Source of the DNA: Bacillota bacterium | GTDB lineage: Bacteria; Bacillota; Sulfobacillia; JAJYWN01 | Assembly: GCA_021791495.1 (NCBI GenBank) | Contig: JAJYWN010000062.1 | Location: 1 to 40,897, forward strand | Direction: 5' to 3' | Length of the DNA: 40,897 bases | Part shown: positions 4,867 to 37,173 of the stretch, piece by piece | Numbering within the stretch: position 1 is the first letter of the stretch | How the letters are laid out: the number at the start of each line of letters is the position of its first letter | Notes under the pieces: generated by a model | Databases searched by the model: none | What the model was told of the DNA's origin: nothing | Seen by the model: only the letters and a program-made list of their open reading frames with translations | Made by a program: the position numbers and the translations under genes

Positions 4867-5108
4867 GTCGCTCCCGGCGTACCTTGAAAACGAAAAAAAG
4901 CGAGAACGAAGTATTGCGAAAACTGGTAAGATGAGAAGGCAAAAGGGCTCGAATATCGAACCTGCAAATGGGTTTCAGGCCGCAGATGAATGGCCGAAAA
5001 CTGTCCGATACACAGCACATGAACCGAGGGGGCGGACCGGTGTCACCAGAGCCGGGAGGAAAGGACCAAAACGAGAGCAACGGACTCAAAGAAGGCGCCA
5101 AGGGGACG

Positions 5109-6476
5109 ATGACCGACGACGAAGTCCCGCTGGCGCCTTGGCAGAGAGACTGGCACAAGATTCCCCTGTGGCAGCACGTCACCGAAGACGAGTGGAAAGA
5201 CTGGCATTGGCAGATCCGAAACCGTCTGGTAACCGTCGAGCAGTTGAAGCAGGTGGTGCCCCTCACCGCGGATGAGGAGGAGGGGATCCGGCGGTGCCTT
5301 GGCTCACTCCGCATGGCCATCACCCCTTACTACGCCACCCTGATCGACCCCGAGAATCTGAACTGCCCCATTCGTAAGCAAGCCATCCCGACCGTGGCGG
5401 AGCTGCATAGCGGCCCCTACGACATGGAAGACCCCCTATTCGAGGACGTCGACTCGCCCGTTCCGGGACTCACGCACCGCTACCCCGACCGTGTTCTCTT
5501 CCTGGTCACCGACCAGTGCTCCATGTATTGCCGCCATTGCACAAGGCGACGCGTGGCCGGCCAAACCGACCATATGCGCCACCCGGCGGAGATCGACGCC
5601 GCCATCGCCTACATCCGGGCCACGCCGGAGGTGCGCGACGTGTTGGTGTCGGGCGGCGACCCGTTGACCCTTGATGATGATGTGTTAGAGAGCATCATTG
5701 CCCGGCTGCGCGCCATTCCGCATGTAGAGATCATTCGCATCGGCACGCGCATCCCGGTGGTCAGCCCGCAGCGGGTAACCGAGGGGCTCTGCAATATGCT
5801 GCGAAAGTACCATCCGGTGTGGGTGAACACCCATTTCAACAGTCCGCGCGAACTGACGCCGGCGGCGGCGCGGGCGTGCGCCATGCTGGCCGACGCGGGC
5901 ATCCCGCTGGGCAACCAGAGCGTGCTCTTGCGCGGGGTGAACGATCATCCGGCCACCATGCGCGAGCTGGTGCACGGGCTGATGCGGTGCCGGGTGAGGC
6001 CTTATTACCTGTACCAGTGCGACCTGTCGCGCGGACTCTCGCACTTCCGCACGTCGGTAGCACGGGGCGTCGAGATCATCGAGAACCTGCGCGGACACAC
6101 GACGGGTTTGGCCGTGCCGACCTACGTCATCGACGTGCCGGGCGGCGGCGGCAAGGTTCCGGTGGGGCCCGAATACCTCATTTCTCAAGGCGCCAACAAG
6201 GTAGTGCTGCGCAACTACGAGGGTGTCATTTCGGTCTACCACGAGCCCGAGGATTACCGGCCCGGGCCGCAGCCGCCGGGGATTTCGCTGGGTGCGGTAG
6301 AAGCGGTGGCCGCGGTGGCGACGACAGCCGCCGGAGCCGGCAGACCACCGGGTAACGGCTCGAAGGCAGCCGGCGTAGCTGGCCTGATGGCCGGCAGCGA
6401 GATCAGCATCGACCCGCCGGGGCTGGCGCGCGGGAAGCGGCGCCGGCCGCCGAAGAAGCAGCCGCCTAAGGCCTAG
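5109..6476 (+). CDS. kamA: Lysine 2,3-aminomutase (radical SAM, PLP)
   Basis: The 455-aa enzyme interconverts L-lysine and L-beta-lysine, the first step of lysine fermentation. The radical SAM motif CSMYCRHC gives Cys137, Cys141 and Cys144. PLP should bind Lys349 in PGGGGK. Asp305 and Asp342 align with the residues (Asp293, Asp330 of the Clostridium enzyme) that hold the substrate side-chain ammonium, which supports lysine over glutamate as substrate; the spacing to the cysteine motif matches exactly. The ATG at 5109 follows AAGGGG; the longer frame upstream looks untranslated. A C-terminal tail of about 60 residues, rich in Ala, Gly and Pro and ending in Lys/Arg and Pro, goes beyond the conserved core. 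It stands between kdd and kamB. Confidence 0.94.
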   Translation: MTDDEVPLAPWQRDWHKIPLWQHVTEDEWKDWHWQIRNRLVTVEQLKQVVPLTADEEEGIRRCLGSLRMAITPYYATLIDPENLNCPIRKQAIPTVAELHSGPYDMEDPLFEDVDSPVPGLTHRYPDRVLFLVTDQCSMYCRHCTRRRVAGQTDHMRHPAEIDAAIAYIRATPEVRDVLVSGGDPLTLDDDVLESIIARLRAIPHVEIIRIGTRIPVVSPQRVTEGLCNMLRKYHPVWVNTHFNSPRELTPAAARACAMLADAGIPLGNQSVLLRGVNDHPATMRELVHGLMRCRVRPYYLYQCDLSRGLSHFRTSVARGVEIIENLRGHTTGLAVPTYVIDVPGGGGKVPVGPEYLISQGANKVVLRNYEGVISVYHEPEDYRPGPQPPGISLGAVEAVAAVATTAAGAGRPPGNGSKAAGVAGLMAGSEISIDPPGLARGKRRRPPKKQPPKA

Positions 6477-6686: not shown

Positions 6687-7751
6687 ATGTCCATTCTTGA
6701 ACTCATTCTGGGCGGAGGGTACAAGAGTGTGGCCGTCGTGGGAATGGCCAAGAACACGGGAAAGACGACTACCTTAAATCACATGATCAAGGAGGCGGCC
6801 GCATCTGGAGGAGGCCAAGTGATGCTCGGCCTCATTACCGCCGGCCGTGACGGTGAGAAGACCGACATCCTCACAAACCTGCCCAAACCCGTCATCGTCG
6901 CCCCGACCGGGGCGCTGTTCGCCACGGCGGAGCAGGTCCTGCCACGCTGCGAGGCACGGCTGGAGCTGGTGGAGGACACAGCGTACATTACCCAGCTAGG
7001 GCGGGTGTCCATCTACCGGGTGGAGGAAGCCGGGGCGGTGGAATTGGTCGGCCCCGATACGGCCGGCCAGCTACGGCACATCATCCGGCGGATGCGGGAC
7101 CTGGGCGCGGCCCTGGTGCTGGCCGACGGCGCCTTCGACCGCCGCGCCTCAGCCAGTCCAGCCATCGTTGAGGCTGCTATCCTGGCAACGGGGGCAGCCT
7201 TGTCGCCGGACATGGCCACGACTATCGCCTGGACGTCCATGGTCGCCCGACTCCTTCAACTGCGGCGCCCAGCGGATCGGCGCCTGGAGGCGGCGGCCCG
7301 CAAGGTCATAGCGGAGCGGCGAGTGGCCGTCATCGACACCGAATACCGCACTCGTTACCTTGACGTCGGCACCGCCCTCGGAAATGCGGACAAGGTGACC
7401 CGAGCGGTAGCCGCCACCCGGACCATAGAGGGGGCAGAGTGTCTGGCTTTGGCTTGCGGTCGGTCGGTAACAGGCGAGATATTGACCGCGCTGACCAGCA
7501 AGGCGGCGGACGGCAGGAAAGTCGAGCTAGTAGTAGGTGATGGCACCCGCCTCTTCGTGGAGCCGGAGGAGTGGCGTCGCTTCACCGCCGCCGGCGGCCG
7601 CGTCACCGTGCTGAACCCCATCCGTCTCTTGGCCGTAACTGTGAACCCCTACTCGCCAGTCGGCCCATCCTACAACCCCGCCGACTTCCTCGCCAAGGTG
7701 GGCCGCGCCGTGACACCCATCCCCGCCTTCGACCTGGGGCGCGGACCTTGA
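6687..7751 (+). CDS. kamB: P-loop protein, probable lysine 5,6-aminomutase reactivase subunit KamB
   Basis: The 354-aa protein starts with a Walker A motif, GMAKNTGKTT (residues 19-28), typical of an ATP- or GTP-binding protein. The rest is Ala/Val-rich alpha/beta sequence without a recognisable catalytic motif. From memory it resembles the KamB proteins of lysine-fermenting Clostridia, which with the MutS-like KamC are annotated as reactivating the B12 enzyme lysine 5,6-aminomutase. Its place after kamA supports this. The KamC partner is not in the window. The ATG at 6687 has only a distant GAAGGTGG as ribosome site. It converges with the minus-strand membrane-protein gene, with 13 bases between the stops. 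Confidence 0.7.
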   Translation: MSILELILGGGYKSVAVVGMAKNTGKTTTLNHMIKEAAASGGGQVMLGLITAGRDGEKTDILTNLPKPVIVAPTGALFATAEQVLPRCEARLELVEDTAYITQLGRVSIYRVEEAGAVELVGPDTAGQLRHIIRRMRDLGAALVLADGAFDRRASASPAIVEAAILATGAALSPDMATTIAWTSMVARLLQLRRPADRRLEAAARKVIAERRVAVIDTEYRTRYLDVGTALGNADKVTRAVAATRTIEGAECLALACGRSVTGEILTALTSKAADGRKVELVVGDGTRLFVEPEEWRRFTAAGGRVTVLNPIRLLAVTVNPYSPVGPSYNPADFLAKVGRAVTPIPAFDLGRGP

Positions 7752-12456: not shown

Positions 12457-12598
12457 CCTGGTATTCCCTCCCTAGTCGGAGAATTGGGACTTGATTCTAC
12501 TTTCCGACCAGGAATCCTTTCCCAAGTAAACGAATTCCAGATTGTGATTTCATGCGGGTTAGCAGCATTTTCAGCAGATGAAAGGAGCCGGAAAAAGG

Positions 12599-13936
12599 AT
12601 GTCTGGGCGGATCGTCGTCAGGGCCGGATTGTTAATCGATGGCAACGGCAACGCATGGAAAAACCGCAGTGTGGTGGTAAAGAGTAGGAGCATCGAAGGG
12701 GTAGTGGAGTCGGAAGACTGTCACGTCCTCCCGGGCGATGAGGTCATCGACGCCTCCGCCTACACCGTGATGCCCGGCCTCATCGACTGCCACGTCCACA
12801 CGCGCAGCTCGGGTGACCCGAAGGACCGGGGGTTCGATTCCACCCAGACCAGCATTCCCACCTTCGCCTACCGTGCGCTCCTCAACGCCCATAAGGATCT
12901 GGAGGCCGGCTTCACCACCATCCGCGACATGGCCAGCATCGGGTACGTGGACATCTCGCTGCGCGATACCTTCGAGCGCGGCGATTTCCCGGGCCCGCGG
13001 ATGCGCGTGGTCGGCTACGGTCTGACCCAATGGGGCGGGCACATGCACCACTTCCTGCGACCGGGGCTCGACATGGTGGAGAGCACCGGAGTGGTGAATA
13101 ACCCGGCCGAGGCCCAGTCTGCCGCCCGCTACCAGATCGGACGCGGCGCCGACGGTATCAAGTTCAACTCGGGCGTGGGCAAGTTGGTGGACGGCAAGAT
13201 CGTGATGGAGCAGGAGATGGACTACGACCTGATGGCGGTGGCGGTCAAGGAGGCGCGCAAGGTCGGTGCCTGGAGCGCAACCCACTGCCACGGTGGACGG
13301 GGTGCCACCGACGCTATCCTGGCGGGCGTGACGTCTATCGAGCACGGCCATTGGCTGACCGACGAGCACTTCGATCTGATGTTGAGGAACGGTACCATCT
13401 TCGTCCCGACCATGTGCCCGAACGAAAAGCGGTACGAGCGCGGGAAAGACCGGACGGGGAGCGGGCCGGAGTTTTGGGAGTGGCTGGAGCGGGAGACGGA
13501 GGACAAGATCGACACGCTGGCCCGGGCCATGAAGGCCGGGGTGCCCATCGCGGCGGGGAGCGACGCCGGGACCAACTACAACTTCCACGGCGAGAACGCG
13601 CGGGAGATGGAGTTCCTGGTCATGCGGGGCATGCCGCCGATGATGGCTATCGTGGCGGGGACGAAGATCGCCGCCATGACGGCGAAGCTGGACCACAAGA
13701 TCGGGACCCTGGACGCCGGCAAGTGGGCGGACGTCATCGTGGTGAACGGTAATCCGGTGGAAAACATCAAGGTCTTGAACGATAAGGCCAACATCCTTCT
13801 CATCATGAAGGACGGCAAGGTTACGATCGAGCGCGGACCGTCCCTGCGGTCGGTGGTGCCAGCCGAGGCTACGGCCGCGGCGGCCAGCGCGGGGTCCGGC
13901 ACGGGCTGGGGCGCCGCGGAAGGGGGGCGCGTCTAA
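12599..13936 (+). CDS. Metal-dependent amidohydrolase, prolidase/imidazolonepropionase-like (copy 1)
   Basis: The 445-aa TIM-barrel hydrolase of the amidohydrolase superfamily carries the metal motif DCHVHTR (His65, His67), a candidate bridging lysine in GADGIKFN, histidines in THCHGG and EHGHWL, and the late aspartate in AAGSDAG. Members of this subgroup often cleave Xaa-Pro or other dipeptides, or cyclic amides; the substrate here is not known. The start at 12599 follows AAAGGAG; an ATG at 12578 is possible. The C-terminus carries an Ala/Gly-rich tail. Its stop overlaps the start of a close paralogue by one base (TAATG). It is divergent from the peptide-binding protein gene. Confidence 0.88.
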   Translation: MSGRIVVRAGLLIDGNGNAWKNRSVVVKSRSIEGVVESEDCHVLPGDEVIDASAYTVMPGLIDCHVHTRSSGDPKDRGFDSTQTSIPTFAYRALLNAHKDLEAGFTTIRDMASIGYVDISLRDTFERGDFPGPRMRVVGYGLTQWGGHMHHFLRPGLDMVESTGVVNNPAEAQSAARYQIGRGADGIKFNSGVGKLVDGKIVMEQEMDYDLMAVAVKEARKVGAWSATHCHGGRGATDAILAGVTSIEHGHWLTDEHFDLMLRNGTIFVPTMCPNEKRYERGKDRTGSGPEFWEWLERETEDKIDTLARAMKAGVPIAAGSDAGTNYNFHGENAREMEFLVMRGMPPMMAIVAGTKIAAMTAKLDHKIGTLDAGKWADVIVVNGNPVENIKVLNDKANILLIMKDGKVTIERGPSLRSVVPAEATAAAASAGSGTGWGAAEGGRV

Positions 13937-15234
13937 TGTCGAGTTCCTCCGGTTCTTCCATCTCCAGCCCCAGCTCCAACGGCGCCCGGCTAGTCATCAA
14001 GGCCGGTCTGCTCATCGACGGCAACGGCGGGCAGGCGCGCGACCAGGTGGTCGTGGTGAACGGAAGAAACATCGAGGGCGTTTACCCCTTGAACCCTTTC
14101 CAGCCGCGCCCCGACGACAAGGTGATCGACGCTGCCCAATATACCGTCATGCCGGGCCTCATCGACTGCCACGTGCACACCCGCAGCACGGGCGACCCGC
14201 GCGATCAGCGGACGGCGTACACGACTAGCGTGCCGGATTTCGCCTATCGGTCCTTAAGGAACGCCCAGAAAGACTTGGAGGCCGGGTACACCACACTACG
14301 GGATATGGCCAGCATCAATTATGTCGATGTGGCCCTTCGGGACGCCATCGAGCGTGGCGATTTCAAGGGGCCGCGGCTGCGCGTATCGGGCTGGGGCTTG
14401 ACGCAGTGGGGCGGGCACATGCACCGCTTTATGCGGCCGGGGCTGGACATGGTCGAGAGCAAGGGCGTCGTCAATAACCCGGGCGAGGCGCAATCGGCGG
14501 CCCGCTATAACATCGGGCGGGGCGTGGACGGCCTCAAGTTCAACACGGGCGGCGGCGTGCTGGACGATAACGGGAAAATGGTGATCCATCAGGAAATGGA
14601 TTACGCGATGCTGCGGGCGGCGGTCAAGGAAGCCGAGAAGGTGGGTGCCTGGACCGCTACCCACTGCCACGGGGGGCAGGGGGCGACTGATGCGATACTG
14701 GCGGGGGTATTCTCGATCGAGCACGGGCACTGGCTGACGGACGAGCAGTTCGCGCAGATGTTGGAGCGGGGCACTATCTTCGTCCCGACCTTGTGCGCGA
14801 ACGAGAACCGCTACCGGCTGGGGCCGGCGGCGGTAGACCACGACGAGAAGGCGTGGCGGTGGCTGGAGATCGTCATGGAAGACAAGACAGACACGGTCAA
14901 GAAGGCCATGAAAGCGGGGGTGCCTGTGGCGGCGGGGAGCGACGCCGGAATGGTGCACACCTACCACGGCGAGTGTGCGCGGGAAATGGAGTACCTGGTC
15001 AGGCGGGCCATGACGCCCATGCAGGCCATCGTGGCCAGCACGAAGACGGCGGCCATGGCGACGAAGCTGGACCATAAGACCGGGACGCTGGACGCTGGTA
15101 AGTGGGCGGACGTCATCGTGGTGAAGGGTAACCCCTTGGACGATATCAGTATCCTGACCGATAAGAACAACATCTTGCTGGTCATGAAAGACGGCAAAGT
15201 GATGGTTGAGCGGGGGCCGAAGCTGGCGGCGTAA
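13936..15234 (+). CDS. Metal-dependent amidohydrolase (copy 2, paralogue of the preceding gene)
   Basis: The 432-aa protein matches its upstream neighbour nearly residue for residue through the barrel: DCHVHTR (His79, His81), GVDGLKFNTGG, THCHGG, EHGHWL and AAGSDAG. It begins with a Ser-rich stretch (MSSSSGSSISSPSSNG) in place of the neighbour's short start and lacks the Ala/Gly tail. The ATG shares its first base with the previous stop, so translation is coupled. The two may have different substrates or form a hetero-oligomer; this is inference. A tandem duplication is the simplest origin. Confidence 0.88.
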   Translation: MSSSSGSSISSPSSNGARLVIKAGLLIDGNGGQARDQVVVVNGRNIEGVYPLNPFQPRPDDKVIDAAQYTVMPGLIDCHVHTRSTGDPRDQRTAYTTSVPDFAYRSLRNAQKDLEAGYTTLRDMASINYVDVALRDAIERGDFKGPRLRVSGWGLTQWGGHMHRFMRPGLDMVESKGVVNNPGEAQSAARYNIGRGVDGLKFNTGGGVLDDNGKMVIHQEMDYAMLRAAVKEAEKVGAWTATHCHGGQGATDAILAGVFSIEHGHWLTDEQFAQMLERGTIFVPTLCANENRYRLGPAAVDHDEKAWRWLEIVMEDKTDTVKKAMKAGVPVAAGSDAGMVHTYHGECAREMEYLVRRAMTPMQAIVASTKTAAMATKLDHKTGTLDAGKWADVIVVKGNPLDDISILTDKNNILLVMKDGKVMVERGPKLAA

Positions 15235-16138: not shown

Positions 16139-16192
16139 CTCGCCACGGGTGGTTTGTCAGCAGAGGTGGTTCGTCTGTGGCAAAATGCCACC

Positions 16193-16495
16193 GTCAACTT
16201 CTCTTGACACCTCGGCGACCGTCTCTGTCAAATCTCTTATTCACCCCCCCGCCGCCGGTAAGTCTGAGCCTCCTGCACCGACCCGGAACACCGAAGGTTG
16301 CACAAGGGCATGTCGCCGTGGGAGATGATGGCGCAGCTAAGCCCTTTCCCCAAGCGTCGCGAAGTTCGTTGTTCCCCAACCAGCCTCTTCCGGCCCACCC
16401 GTAAGCCTTATCTTCCGCTCTGGAGCGTCCTTCCAAAGGGGGGGTGCATGGGAAATCTGACACCCCGAAGCCAACAGGTATCAAAAGGATTTGAC
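16193..16495. mobile_element. MITE-like inverted-repeat element, copy A (about 303 bp)
   Basis: The 58-bp ends (16193-16250 and 16438-16495) are inverted repeats identical at about 37 of 58 positions, best at the outer 20 and inner 25. Each starts GTCAA and ends inward with CACCCCCCC. There is no credible gene inside. Copy B at 22861-23153 has ends of exactly the same length and layout and a related interior, including GCGCAGCT and a run leading to CCAAGGGGGGG. A non-autonomous transposable element is the most economical reading. The rest of 16048-16647 holds the terminator above and a GGGTC/GACCC repeat stretch. Confidence 0.7.
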
Positions 16496-16564
16496 ACCCC
16501 CCTCGTCGGCACCTAATGGTGCGCGTCCGATCCGTGGGATTGGACTTCCATGCCCGCTGCCAGT

Positions 16565-21054: not shown

Positions 21055-22875
21055 ATGCCACCGGAGCCGAAAGGTCCGCTCGGACCGCCTGAGCTGCCTG
21101 AGCTGCTTGACCCGCCTGACTTGCCCAGCCAGCCCGACCTGACCGGCCCGCCTGACTGGCTCGACCTGGACCAGCGCCTTATTGCCCAAGCCCGCGCCTC
21201 AGCGGCGCGCGTCGCCGGCGAGGTCCAAGCCTTCATCGACCGGCATACCACCGTTTCCATCGAGCGGGCGGTAATACGGCTACTGGGCGTCGATGGAGTC
21301 ACAGAGGACGAGTGGCCGTTGCCCAATGCCGTGGTGGAGAACATTCAGGTGGGCGCGCCAGATGTCCTCAGGGGCGCCGACGAAAACGCGGGCCTGGCTC
21401 GCGGGGCTGCCTACTGGCTGGCCAATGCCGTCCTTCATTTCGGTGACAGCCCCCAGGAGATCGCCGAGGCGGTGGGGCGCGGCGCCTTCGACCTCACCGA
21501 GATCCCTCAACACGATGACGGCGCCATCCGTTGGACGGCCTTGGAGCTGGCCGTTCCGGCGATGGAGCAGATCGCGGCGAACCGGCGGCGGCGGGAGCGG
21601 GCGCTGGCAATCAACGGCCTGGATGGGCGGTGGGCGCCCACTGGGGCCGACCAAGGTCGCTGCCATCGCCACAAACCCCTGCTCTATGTCATCGTCGCCA
21701 CTGGAGACATCCGGGAGGATGTGGTCCAGGCCCAGGCCGCCGTCAGGCAGGGCGCCGATATCGTCGCCGTCATCCGCAGCACCGGCCAGAGCCTCTTCGA
21801 CTATGTACCCTACGGCGAAGTGCGCGGCGGTTTCGGCGGCACCTACGCCACGCAGGAGAACTTCCGCATCATGCGGCGCGCGCTGGACGAGGTGGGGGCT
21901 GAGCTGGGGGGTGGGGCGGGTGGCGGCGGGGGTGGCGGCCGCGTGGCCGGTGGCGCGCGCTACCCCCTGCAAGTTAACTACTGCTCCGGCCTGTGCATGC
22001 CCGAAATCGCCGCCATGGGCGCGCTGGAGAGGCTGGACATGATGCTAAACGACGCCATGTACGGGATACTCTTCCGCGACATAAATATGCAGCGGACCTT
22101 TGTGGACCAGCACTTTTCGCGGGCGCTAAACGCATGCGCAGGCATAATTATCAATACCGGCGAGGACAACTACACCACCGTCGACGACCCCATCCGCGCC
22201 GCCCACACCGTGCTGGCCAGCCAGTTCATTAATGAGCAGTTCGCCCACCGCGCCGGCCTGCCCGATGAGCAGATCGGGCTGGGTCACGCCTTCCAGATCG
22301 ACCCCGAGCTGGAGGACGGCCTGCTCCTTGAGATCGCGCAGGCGCAGATGACCCGCCAGATTTTCCCGCGCTCGCCGCTGAAGTACATGCCCCCCACACG
22401 CCACATCACGGGGAACATCTTCCGCGCCTACCTGATGCAGGCCATGTTCAACCTTGTCGGCGTCCTGACTGGTCAGGACATCCAACTCCTCGGCATGCTG
22501 ACGGAGGCGACGCATACCCCCTTCATGCAGGACCGTTGGCTGGCGGTGGACGGCGCCCGCTACGTGATGGGGACGGCCCGGCACCTGCGCGAAGAAGTGC
22601 TGTTCCGGCGGGGTGGGGCGGTGGAGCGGCGCGCGCAGCAAGTCCTGGGGGAGGCGGCGGCGCTGCTGAAGGAGGTGGAGGCCACCGGCCTCATGGCGGC
22701 GCTGGAAAAGGGGGTCTTCGCGGGAGTGCGGCGGCGGATCGACGGCGGCAAGGGGGCCGACGGCGTGATCAGGAAGGCGCCGGATTACTTCAATCCCATC
22801 CTTGAGGTGGCGGCGCCGTTCACGGCGGTCGGGGGAAAGGGGGGGGTGCAGCAGGGGGGAGTCAAGAGTCTTTGA
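21055..22875 (+). CDS. kamD: Lysine 5,6-aminomutase alpha subunit
   Basis: The 606-aa protein is the large subunit of the B12- and PLP-dependent enzyme that moves the terminal amino group of lysine or beta-lysine. Diagnostic stretches include RSTGQSLFDYVPYGE, GGFGGTYATQENFRIMRRAL, YCSGLCMPEIAAMGALERLD and DINMQRTFVDQHFSR. It is longer than the usual roughly 520 aa because of a Pro/Leu-rich N-terminal extension (about 1-40), a Gly-rich insertion at 285-300, and a C-terminal addition. The ATG at 21055 follows GAAGGGGAGAGGGG. The last codons and the stop lie in the left end of inverted-repeat element B. Translation into kamE is interrupted by about 400 bases. Confidence 0.93.
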   Translation: MPPEPKGPLGPPELPELLDPPDLPSQPDLTGPPDWLDLDQRLIAQARASAARVAGEVQAFIDRHTTVSIERAVIRLLGVDGVTEDEWPLPNAVVENIQVGAPDVLRGADENAGLARGAAYWLANAVLHFGDSPQEIAEAVGRGAFDLTEIPQHDDGAIRWTALELAVPAMEQIAANRRRRERALAINGLDGRWAPTGADQGRCHRHKPLLYVIVATGDIREDVVQAQAAVRQGADIVAVIRSTGQSLFDYVPYGEVRGGFGGTYATQENFRIMRRALDEVGAELGGGAGGGGGGGRVAGGARYPLQVNYCSGLCMPEIAAMGALERLDMMLNDAMYGILFRDINMQRTFVDQHFSRALNACAGIIINTGEDNYTTVDDPIRAAHTVLASQFINEQFAHRAGLPDEQIGLGHAFQIDPELEDGLLLEIAQAQMTRQIFPRSPLKYMPPTRHITGNIFRAYLMQAMFNLVGVLTGQDIQLLGMLTEATHTPFMQDRWLAVDGARYVMGTARHLREEVLFRRGGAVERRAQQVLGEAAALLKEVEATGLMAALEKGVFAGVRRRIDGGKGADGVIRKAPDYFNPILEVAAPFTAVGGKGGVQQGGVKSL

Positions 22876-23153
22876 CACCTTGGAGCACCGGGCATTCAAA
22901 TTCCTCATACACCTCCCTCCACCGCCCCCGGCTGTCGAGAGTGTGGACTGGCGCCAGGTGTCGGGGGAGGAAGCTGTCATGGGAAAAGCGCAGCTCCCGC
23001 CACCGCGAAATGGCGGGGGATGGGACACTGCCCGGCAACCTCCCTTGCGGCCATACTCCCAGAGCACTTTTCCCCTCCGGTGGTGCCGTCTCCAAGGGGG
23101 GGTGCATAAGGAATTTGACAGTTCAGAGCGCCAAGGTGTCGGCGAAATGTGAC
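22861..23153. mobile_element. MITE-like inverted-repeat element, copy B (about 293 bp)
   Basis: The 58-bp ends at 22861-22918 and 23096-23153 are inverted repeats that share GTCA, GACACCTTGG, TCAAATTCC and a terminal CACC with C-runs. The layout is identical to copy A (16193-16495): same end length, same GTCAA start, same GGGGGGGTGC inner border. The left end overlaps the kamD 3' end and supplies its stop codon. The element fills most of the 340-base gap between kamD and kamE; no gene is seen in it. Confidence 0.72.
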
Positions 23154-23221
23154 ACCCCCGTTGACTAGCACTTGCAGGCGCCCGGCGCTGGCGGAGAAGG
23201 AGGCGCGCGGAGCACGTGCCG

Positions 23222-31233: not shown

Positions 31234-31620
31234 GGGGCGCCGTCCAGTCCGCCGCAGGGCATCGTTCGAGCGATACTCAACACGAAGGCGCATACGCCGG
31301 CGCGGGTGGCATGGTAGGATTGGAGGAATGGACCTTTGTCGAATGATCCGTCATTTAGACCGCCACCCTTCTGTGGTCGTGGACCGGTGCGCGCAACCCT
31401 GGTTGGTACGGACTAAGTTAACCGGAATCGACCGTTACGGTAAACGACTTCCTTCGCGGAGTGGGCAAGTATCGACTCCCGCCCCAGTTTCGGGAATAGA
31501 ACGGGTCGACGGTGGGCGGAGAGACGGCCCGACGGGGCTGACAGGGGTGGGACGGTCTAGAAAACGGAACGTTCGACAAACATACGTTCCTCGAATGTGA
31601 CCAAAATGCCCGCCCCGCGC
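31234..31620. other. Convergent gap with an inverted repeat
   Basis: The 387 bases separate two convergent genes. No gene is supported; a 90-codon plus-strand frame at 31328-31600 lacks protein character. GGAACGT (31566-31572) and ACGTTCC (31584-31590) form a perfect inverted repeat with an 11-base spacer. Within it, 31577-31590 matches the Bacillus LexA box at 12 of 14 positions. I see no T-rich terminator. Confidence 0.5.
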
Positions 31621-36281: not shown

Positions 36282-37173
36282 AGGTTGGCCCCCAATATCA
36301 CAAGAGTCTTGGTGCGCAGCGAGAAGGACTGCAGTGACTCTCATCCCTTCGCAATTCTCGTGCCACGGCCGGGGCCCTGCTAAGCGACGACGCGTCTGCC
36401 AATAGGGATCATTTCCAGCGGCGGAAATGGGATCACAAAGCGCGAGGGCGGGTGTCGGCGCTCCCGTTATGCTCCCATTCAGCCCTGCGGTGGGGGTATC
36501 CGCCGCCATTGGGTCGCGGGAGTCAATTCGGGATACTCTTCCGCGATCAACAGGGTATCTTGGGTTTACCCCAGGCTTACCCCAAGATATTGTGCCGGCT
36601 GTCACGAGGAGGCGGGGCGTCTCTGGAGCGAGGGGCGGAGGGCCTTGCCTTCCTTGCCGCTGCTAGAGAGCATGAGTCCACTTTCGCGTTGGCGGACGGA
36701 CGGACAATCCGGGGCATGAGTGGGTTCCGACGGGGCCCGGGTAGGTTTCGACGGTCGGCAGCAGAGGCTCAAAAGGGTTTCCATGTACCCCATGGGGTAT
36801 TACCAATACCCCCCTAGGGTATGGCTCCACGGCAGGGGGTAAACCCAAGATACCTTGCTGTCGAACGAAAAGTGTCTGGAGTTTACTGCACCCCCCAACC
36901 GCTTGGGTGGCGTTGGGAGTAGCGCTACCGGGGAGCACCGGCCGCGGTCTGGCGCCCCGCGCCCGCCGTCCCTCTTTGCGCCGCATCCTTTCCGTCGCGC
37001 GTCGCATCCTAAACCTTGCATCTTAGCCAAAGGCAGGAACGCAGCGCTGTCACGTCCAAGTAACATCGGGCTCTGCGATCACCGGAGTAAGCGCAAGGAT
37101 AGTGCAAGGTATGACCGCAGGTTACCAGACCAATAGCAGGCAATTGACAATGCAGACAGAGGAGGAAACCCCG
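36282..37173. other. Long intergenic region with an inverted-repeat element
   Basis: No gene is supported in these roughly 890 bases. Near the ferredoxin gene a hairpin is formed by CATTTCC (36410-36416) and GGAAATG (36423-36429). Most of the middle is element C, described separately. The last 300 bases before the carboxyltransferase gene look unstructured apart from GC-rich short repeats, with no recognisable riboswitch or T-box. Confidence 0.55.
36554..36854. mobile_element. MITE-like inverted-repeat element C (about 301 bp)
   Basis: GGTATCTTGGGTTTACCCC at 36554-36572 is repeated exactly in inverse orientation at 36836-36854, giving perfect 19-bp ends 301 bp apart. Inside the right end are nested palindromes: TACCCCATGGGGTA at 36786-36799 and GGGGTATT / AATACCCC around ACC. 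The left end has its own fold, TATCTTGGG with CCCAAGATA. No gene lies inside. Size and design resemble elements A and B, but the end sequence differs. Confidence 0.65.

Follow-up and report, generated by a model that had tools for sequence, protein, structure and literature searches.

The window, that is the whole stretch of 40,897 nucleotides analysed here, harbours three short elements bounded by inverted ends. Two of them, termed A and B, belong to the same subfamily, whereas the third represents a sister subfamily. The elements, their arms and the genes that enclose B are as follows:

16188 to 16501, minus strand (the family orientation, with the better conserved arm type first): element A, 314 bp
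16193 to 16250, plus strand: left arm of A, without GGGGG border, with outer site at 16193 to 16211 and inner site at 16226 to 16250
16437 to 16501, minus strand: right arm of A including its GGGGG border (profile E 6e-14)
21055 to 22875, plus strand: lysine 5,6-aminomutase alpha subunit gene (PF09043, E 3e-229)
22855 to 23159, minus strand: element B, 305 bp, separating the two subunit genes (alpha and beta)
22855 to 22919, plus strand: left arm of B, of the less conserved type (profile E 6e-15)
23094 to 23159, minus strand: right arm of B, of the conserved type, 79-87% identical to the left arms of copies C51, C54a and C55
23216 to 24136, plus strand: lysine 5,6-aminomutase beta subunit gene (PF16554 and PF02310)
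36497 to 36903, minus strand (the strand of the alignment model): third element, sister subfamily, with arms at 36521 to 36572 and 36836 to 36887 and palindromes at 36786 to 36799 and 36806 to 36822

A preceding sequence-only reading had described 58-bp inverted ends in A (16193-16250/16438-16495) and B (22861-22918/23096-23153) with a common order of GTCAA, GACACC, TCAAAT and CACCCCCCC blocks, and all of these are indeed present. Local alignments of the ends (A left with right, B left with right, A with B at the left and at the right) scored 40-54 as compared to a maximum of 26-29 in 300 shuffles, and a single register fits all four ends, leaving 26 columns invariant. The suspicion that GGGGG extends the repeat was borne out as well: a G run precedes (T/A)GTCAA in three of these four ends and in most ends of the other copies. 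Since the G run belongs to the repeat, the arm length amounts to ~64 bp. The proposed lack of a gene in both elements agrees with the lists of open reading frames, which show short frames only, none of which is shown to be conserved among copies. Scans for promoters and terminators yielded nothing above shuffles within A or B. The GC content of the elements is 0.54-0.62 as compared to 0.64 for the window. The assertion that the interiors can be aligned stood in part. It failed for A and B in local alignment (score 20; 177 of 300 shuffles equally good) and obtained a weak signal in global alignment (z 2.5), but homology is clear by way of the other copies of the family. With the conserved arm type placed first, global alignment of the interiors reached z 10.5 for C55 with C54a, 6.2 for C55 with B and 3.8 for C55 with C51, and no comparable signal appeared in these pairs in reversed orientation.

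A sequence-only profile (R1) was built from the four ends of A and B and a second profile (R2) from thirteen ends. The further copies that the sequence-only reading had advised to look for do exist in this genome, that is four more complete copies and a damaged one of the same subfamily, and a sister subfamily besides. The complete copies were recognised by paired inverted arms and profile search, the damaged one by profile search:

C55, 334 to 619: complete copy
C54, 27419 to 27730: complete copy
C51, 34572 to 34881: complete copy
C54, 160373 to 160711: complete copy
C1, 1791 to 1844: damaged copy with a single arm

The true arms in R2 thus number 13 (six pairs and one single arm), and element lengths range from 288 to 341 bp. 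No further arm pairs were found by profile elsewhere in the 4.2-Mb, 97% complete assembly, and the best candidate for a left arm of the damaged copy did not exceed shuffles. Close matches to the sites lie almost exclusively in inverted pairs ~300 bp apart. No convincing copy was obtained from the three order-mates, from another 150 members of the class or from a phylum sample (398 genomes searched). The few matches to the end profile in relatives were isolated, weak and partial; being single short partial matches, several of them inside genes, they were treated as chance. The exact pattern hit three single, unrelated sites in a collection of 84,980 species, and plasmid and phage DNA gave chance-level similarity only. 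Viral contigs contained no match to strict patterns, two partial matches to a looser pattern and six matches to the motif of the sister subfamily. Absence from the other 153 genomes of the class is what would be expected of a lineage-specific mobile repeat.

B supplies the stop codon of the alpha subunit gene. From this stop to the conserved beta start there are 449 nt. The corresponding spacing is 15, 30 and 63 nt in the order-mates, of which there are three, and among 28 relatives it stays within 223 nt in 26. This longer gap makes an insertion in this lineage the best reading of B, with approximate borders of the empty site. A sits behind an RraA-like gene. The remaining copies of its subfamily are located before a polysaccharide deacetylase gene, between aldo/keto reductase and PmbA/TldD genes, before a methyltransferase gene, between a HAD hydrolase gene and pdxS, and between amidohydrolase and M28 peptidase genes. 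The neighbouring genes share neither function nor arrangement, and convergent, divergent and tandem sites all occur. Upstream of the C51 copy, a gene for class II fructose-bisphosphate aldolase (L052, 6583-7300) appears to be broken by a frameshift; as the frameshift apparently lies ahead of the element, this gene is uninformative as to insertion.

The third element of the window has the same layout as A and B and a different sequence. Inverted arms spaced by 60-450 bp were sought in 1.33 Mb of the genome. The scan returned 14 pairs, as compared to none in shuffled sequence, and most of the stronger ones belong to the sister subfamily. Its profile detected at least eight copies and two partial ones, a lower bound since these 1.33 Mb, which include the window, make up about one-third of the total. 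Besides the third element, the following copies were recorded:

L137, 18767 to 19144: sister copy
L151, 13042 to 13417: sister copy
L179, 153 to 517: sister copy
L176, 7675 to 8047: sister copy
L155, 10915 to 11263: sister copy
L163, 6754 to 7122: sister copy
L162, 7022 to 7348: sister copy

In the alignment of this subfamily, identity is 93% in the arm at the right end of the model, 92% in its tail with GGCGGCGGATACCCCC, which lies outside the arm, 75% in the other arm and 64-79% in the interior. Two features recur in both subfamilies, a TAGCTGCGG-like block in the centre and, ~10 bp inward from one arm, a TACCC...GGGTA palindrome or hairpin; on account of layout and these short motifs, we regard the subfamilies as related. 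Between the copies L137 and L151, identity is 81% across 553 bp, beyond the arms and up to TTGTTGACAAA-like inverted ends. The left end of the L151 copy is directly abutted by a group II intron domain V (12911-12980; Rfam RF00029, 46 bits), the end of a seemingly truncated intron.

Within the arms of the first subfamily, the order from the outside is G run, outer site TGTCAAATTTCGCCGACACC, a spacer of ~16 bp, inner site TGTCAAATTCCTTATGCACC and C run. Each arm therefore contains two related sites of ~20 bp, ~35 bp apart, with the consensus TGTCAAATTYCnnnnRCACC. A scoring matrix for the inner site detected the outer site in tandem in 10 of 13 arms (at most one of 2000 shuffles was as good). In some arms the facing orientation was detected as well, because the sites are palindrome-like; our first view of the arms as simple palindromes was given up, as the tandem reading of two sites fits most arms better.

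We consider it probable that the family to which A and B belong is an old one, made up of short, non-autonomous, transposon-like repeats that are non-coding and resemble miniature inverted-repeat elements (MITEs). The arms would be recognition sites of a DDE-type transposase that binds two sites per end, pairs both ends and moves the unit; its autonomous source may have been lost from this genome or have become too divergent to be recognised, and the copies would since have decayed between genes. Paired arms, dispersed intergenic copies, diverged homologous interiors and the splitting by B of two genes that lie together in relatives all speak for mobility, and the proposal of the sequence-only reading, either a non-autonomous mobile element or else a large structured repeat family, gains support from the additional copies and the sister subfamily. 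Two further features that it had advised to look for did not turn up. Target duplications sought at the copy junctions were not seen, the best repeats being 2-4 bp, the same as for mispaired flanks, and no transposase gene with the ends of the family was found when the genome was searched for IS256-type and rve transposases. Mobility is thus likely rather than proven. Ends of IS256 resemble those of the family; IS256 was dismissed as parent because PF00872 is absent from the genome, and the three rve loci were dismissed as sources because they lack such ends. One rve transposase locus (L118) is flanked by long inverted ends of repeated TCCGTCCACY..TTCCG units (5010-5136 and 7580-7654) and is apparently autonomous with multi-site ends, but these are unlike those of the family. 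The mover is probably a transposase that is no longer recognisable in this genome. Judging from their divergence, the copies are old; direct repeats wane with age (PMC10969869).

Comparison with known systems places the repeats as an unusual form of an already known kind rather than as a new kind of system. Several transposase sites per transposon end are found in Tn552, Tn5053/Tn402, Mu, Tn7 and IS21. The family is similar to these in having two ~20-bp sites per end and a TGTC start, but differs by a G run outside the TG at both ends, and no such transposase with these ends was found in the genome. Tn3-type ends start with GGGG and are 38 bp long; the ends of the family are longer than and dissimilar to these, which separates it from the Tn3-derived miniature elements (TIMEs). 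The elements share with TIMEs the miniature size and the inverted ends (PMC4133298). The closest likeness is to bacterial MITEs such as Correia, Chunjie and QMITE, which are also gene-less, shorter than 500 bp, bounded by inverted ends and dispersed between genes, and whose copies likewise vary in length and identity with better conserved ends (PMC10969869). Indeed, all complete copies of the first subfamily have inverted ends, and its several dispersed copies measure 288-341 bp and lack a coding gene. However, the arms of ~60 bp exceed the 4-30 bp of those MITEs and carry two sites each, they are unequally conserved, and the family is not strongly AT-rich and shows neither target duplication nor a source element (PMC10969869). 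Since two usual marks, target duplication and an autonomous partner, were not found, we regard the family as MITE-like in its workings, short of a proven MITE.

Long inverted arms could also form the stem, with internal hairpins, of structured non-coding RNA genes, in which the conserved arm would serve as promoter or as a functional piece of the RNA, a reading we consider unlikely. When folded, B and most sister copies were more stable than shuffles, in many cases with an advantage for the strand on which the conserved arm comes first, whereas A on the plus strand folded only slightly better than shuffles; such stability is explicable by a long inverted repeat alone. The recurrence of the small hairpin and the central block in both subfamilies and the near-identity of one sister arm among copies would fit an RNA, and in the alignment of the first subfamily pairs amounted to 85.4% as compared to 80.5% in column shuffles (0 of 500), although the structure tested had itself been obtained from these six rows. 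However, permutation of arms among copies revealed no co-variation in either subfamily, with the limited power of six and seven copies, and wobble pairs (37 versus 34 in the first subfamily) were symmetric between strands. Left arms of the first subfamily paired with their own right arms at 0.606 and with those of other copies at 0.595 (p 0.15; six copies), and the corresponding values in the sister subfamily were 0.944 and 0.947 (seven copies). As arms match those of their own copy no better than foreign ones, they look like predicted protein-recognition sites, kept as sequence, rather than a selected RNA stem. In addition, Rfam matched only the adjacent group II intron remnant and none of the elements, and the copies have no common gene neighbourhood.

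The unequal conservation of the arms is contrary to what a simple inverted-repeat transposon predicts. Four arms (right in B; left in C55, C54a and C51) are mutually 68-87% identical as compared to 50-69% for most other arm pairs, and in each subfamily conservation is higher for one arm type than for the other. Conserved sequence outside the arms of some sister copies likewise counts against a transposon-like origin. Recent spread of whole copies alone would not yield unequal arms together with a conserved tail, whereas selection on that arm, be it for protein binding or for a role within an RNA, would. The better conserved arm in both subfamilies and the conserved tail in the second thus gave rise to another reading: one arm and the tail near-fixed, partner and interior drifting, in a two-subfamily repeat that the host would have adopted for a function at many loci, be it that of a structured RNA, of a recombination site or of a binding site. 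We consider this quite unlikely. Still less probable are clusters of binding sites for a chromosomal protein, either a regulator or a nucleoid protein, that were spread by duplication and selected for binding. Conserved sites in decayed interiors, arms without co-variation and palindrome-like sites would all suit such clusters, but the adjoining genes have no common function or orientation, one copy splits the two genes of a single enzyme, and near matches to the sites are almost confined to the inverted pairs. There is a very slim chance that the true ends lie farther out, beyond the GGGGGTGTC arms, and that the repeats form the inner part of a larger mobile element. Candidate ends of this kind are the TTGTTGACAAA-like inverted sequences that flank two sister copies at distances of ~60 and 110 bp, and to which the identity of L137 and L151 extends past the arm-bounded model. 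However, the remaining sister copies cease to be homologous immediately beyond the arms or beyond the GGATACCCCC tail, and the first subfamily, modelled between the arms only, has flanks without an evident common extension by eye.

The findings thus show two or more related families of miniature repeats with long arms, and no visible mobiliser, in one genome of a bacterial order that has been sparsely sampled. Their unequal arms provide a testable case of miniature repeats that are maintained by something other than recent transposition.

Other inverted pairs were noticed as well. One on L122 (10931-11213; ACTGGAAACTGTCCAGATTTTGGACAC...) has 51-bp arms that are 82% complementary, a total length of 283 bp and an unrelated sequence, one in the window (31319-31596) spans 278 bp with arms of ~50 bp and 77% complementarity, and one on L123 (5805-6170; GGAACTAGTGTGTCGCTTCGGGACACACG...) has 60-bp arms with 73% complementarity. 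The window further contains two adjacent amidohydrolase genes (12578-15234) that look like tandem duplicates (74-81% identical in several stretches) and, at the contig start (1-630), a repeat array with a period of 15 bp within an open frame.
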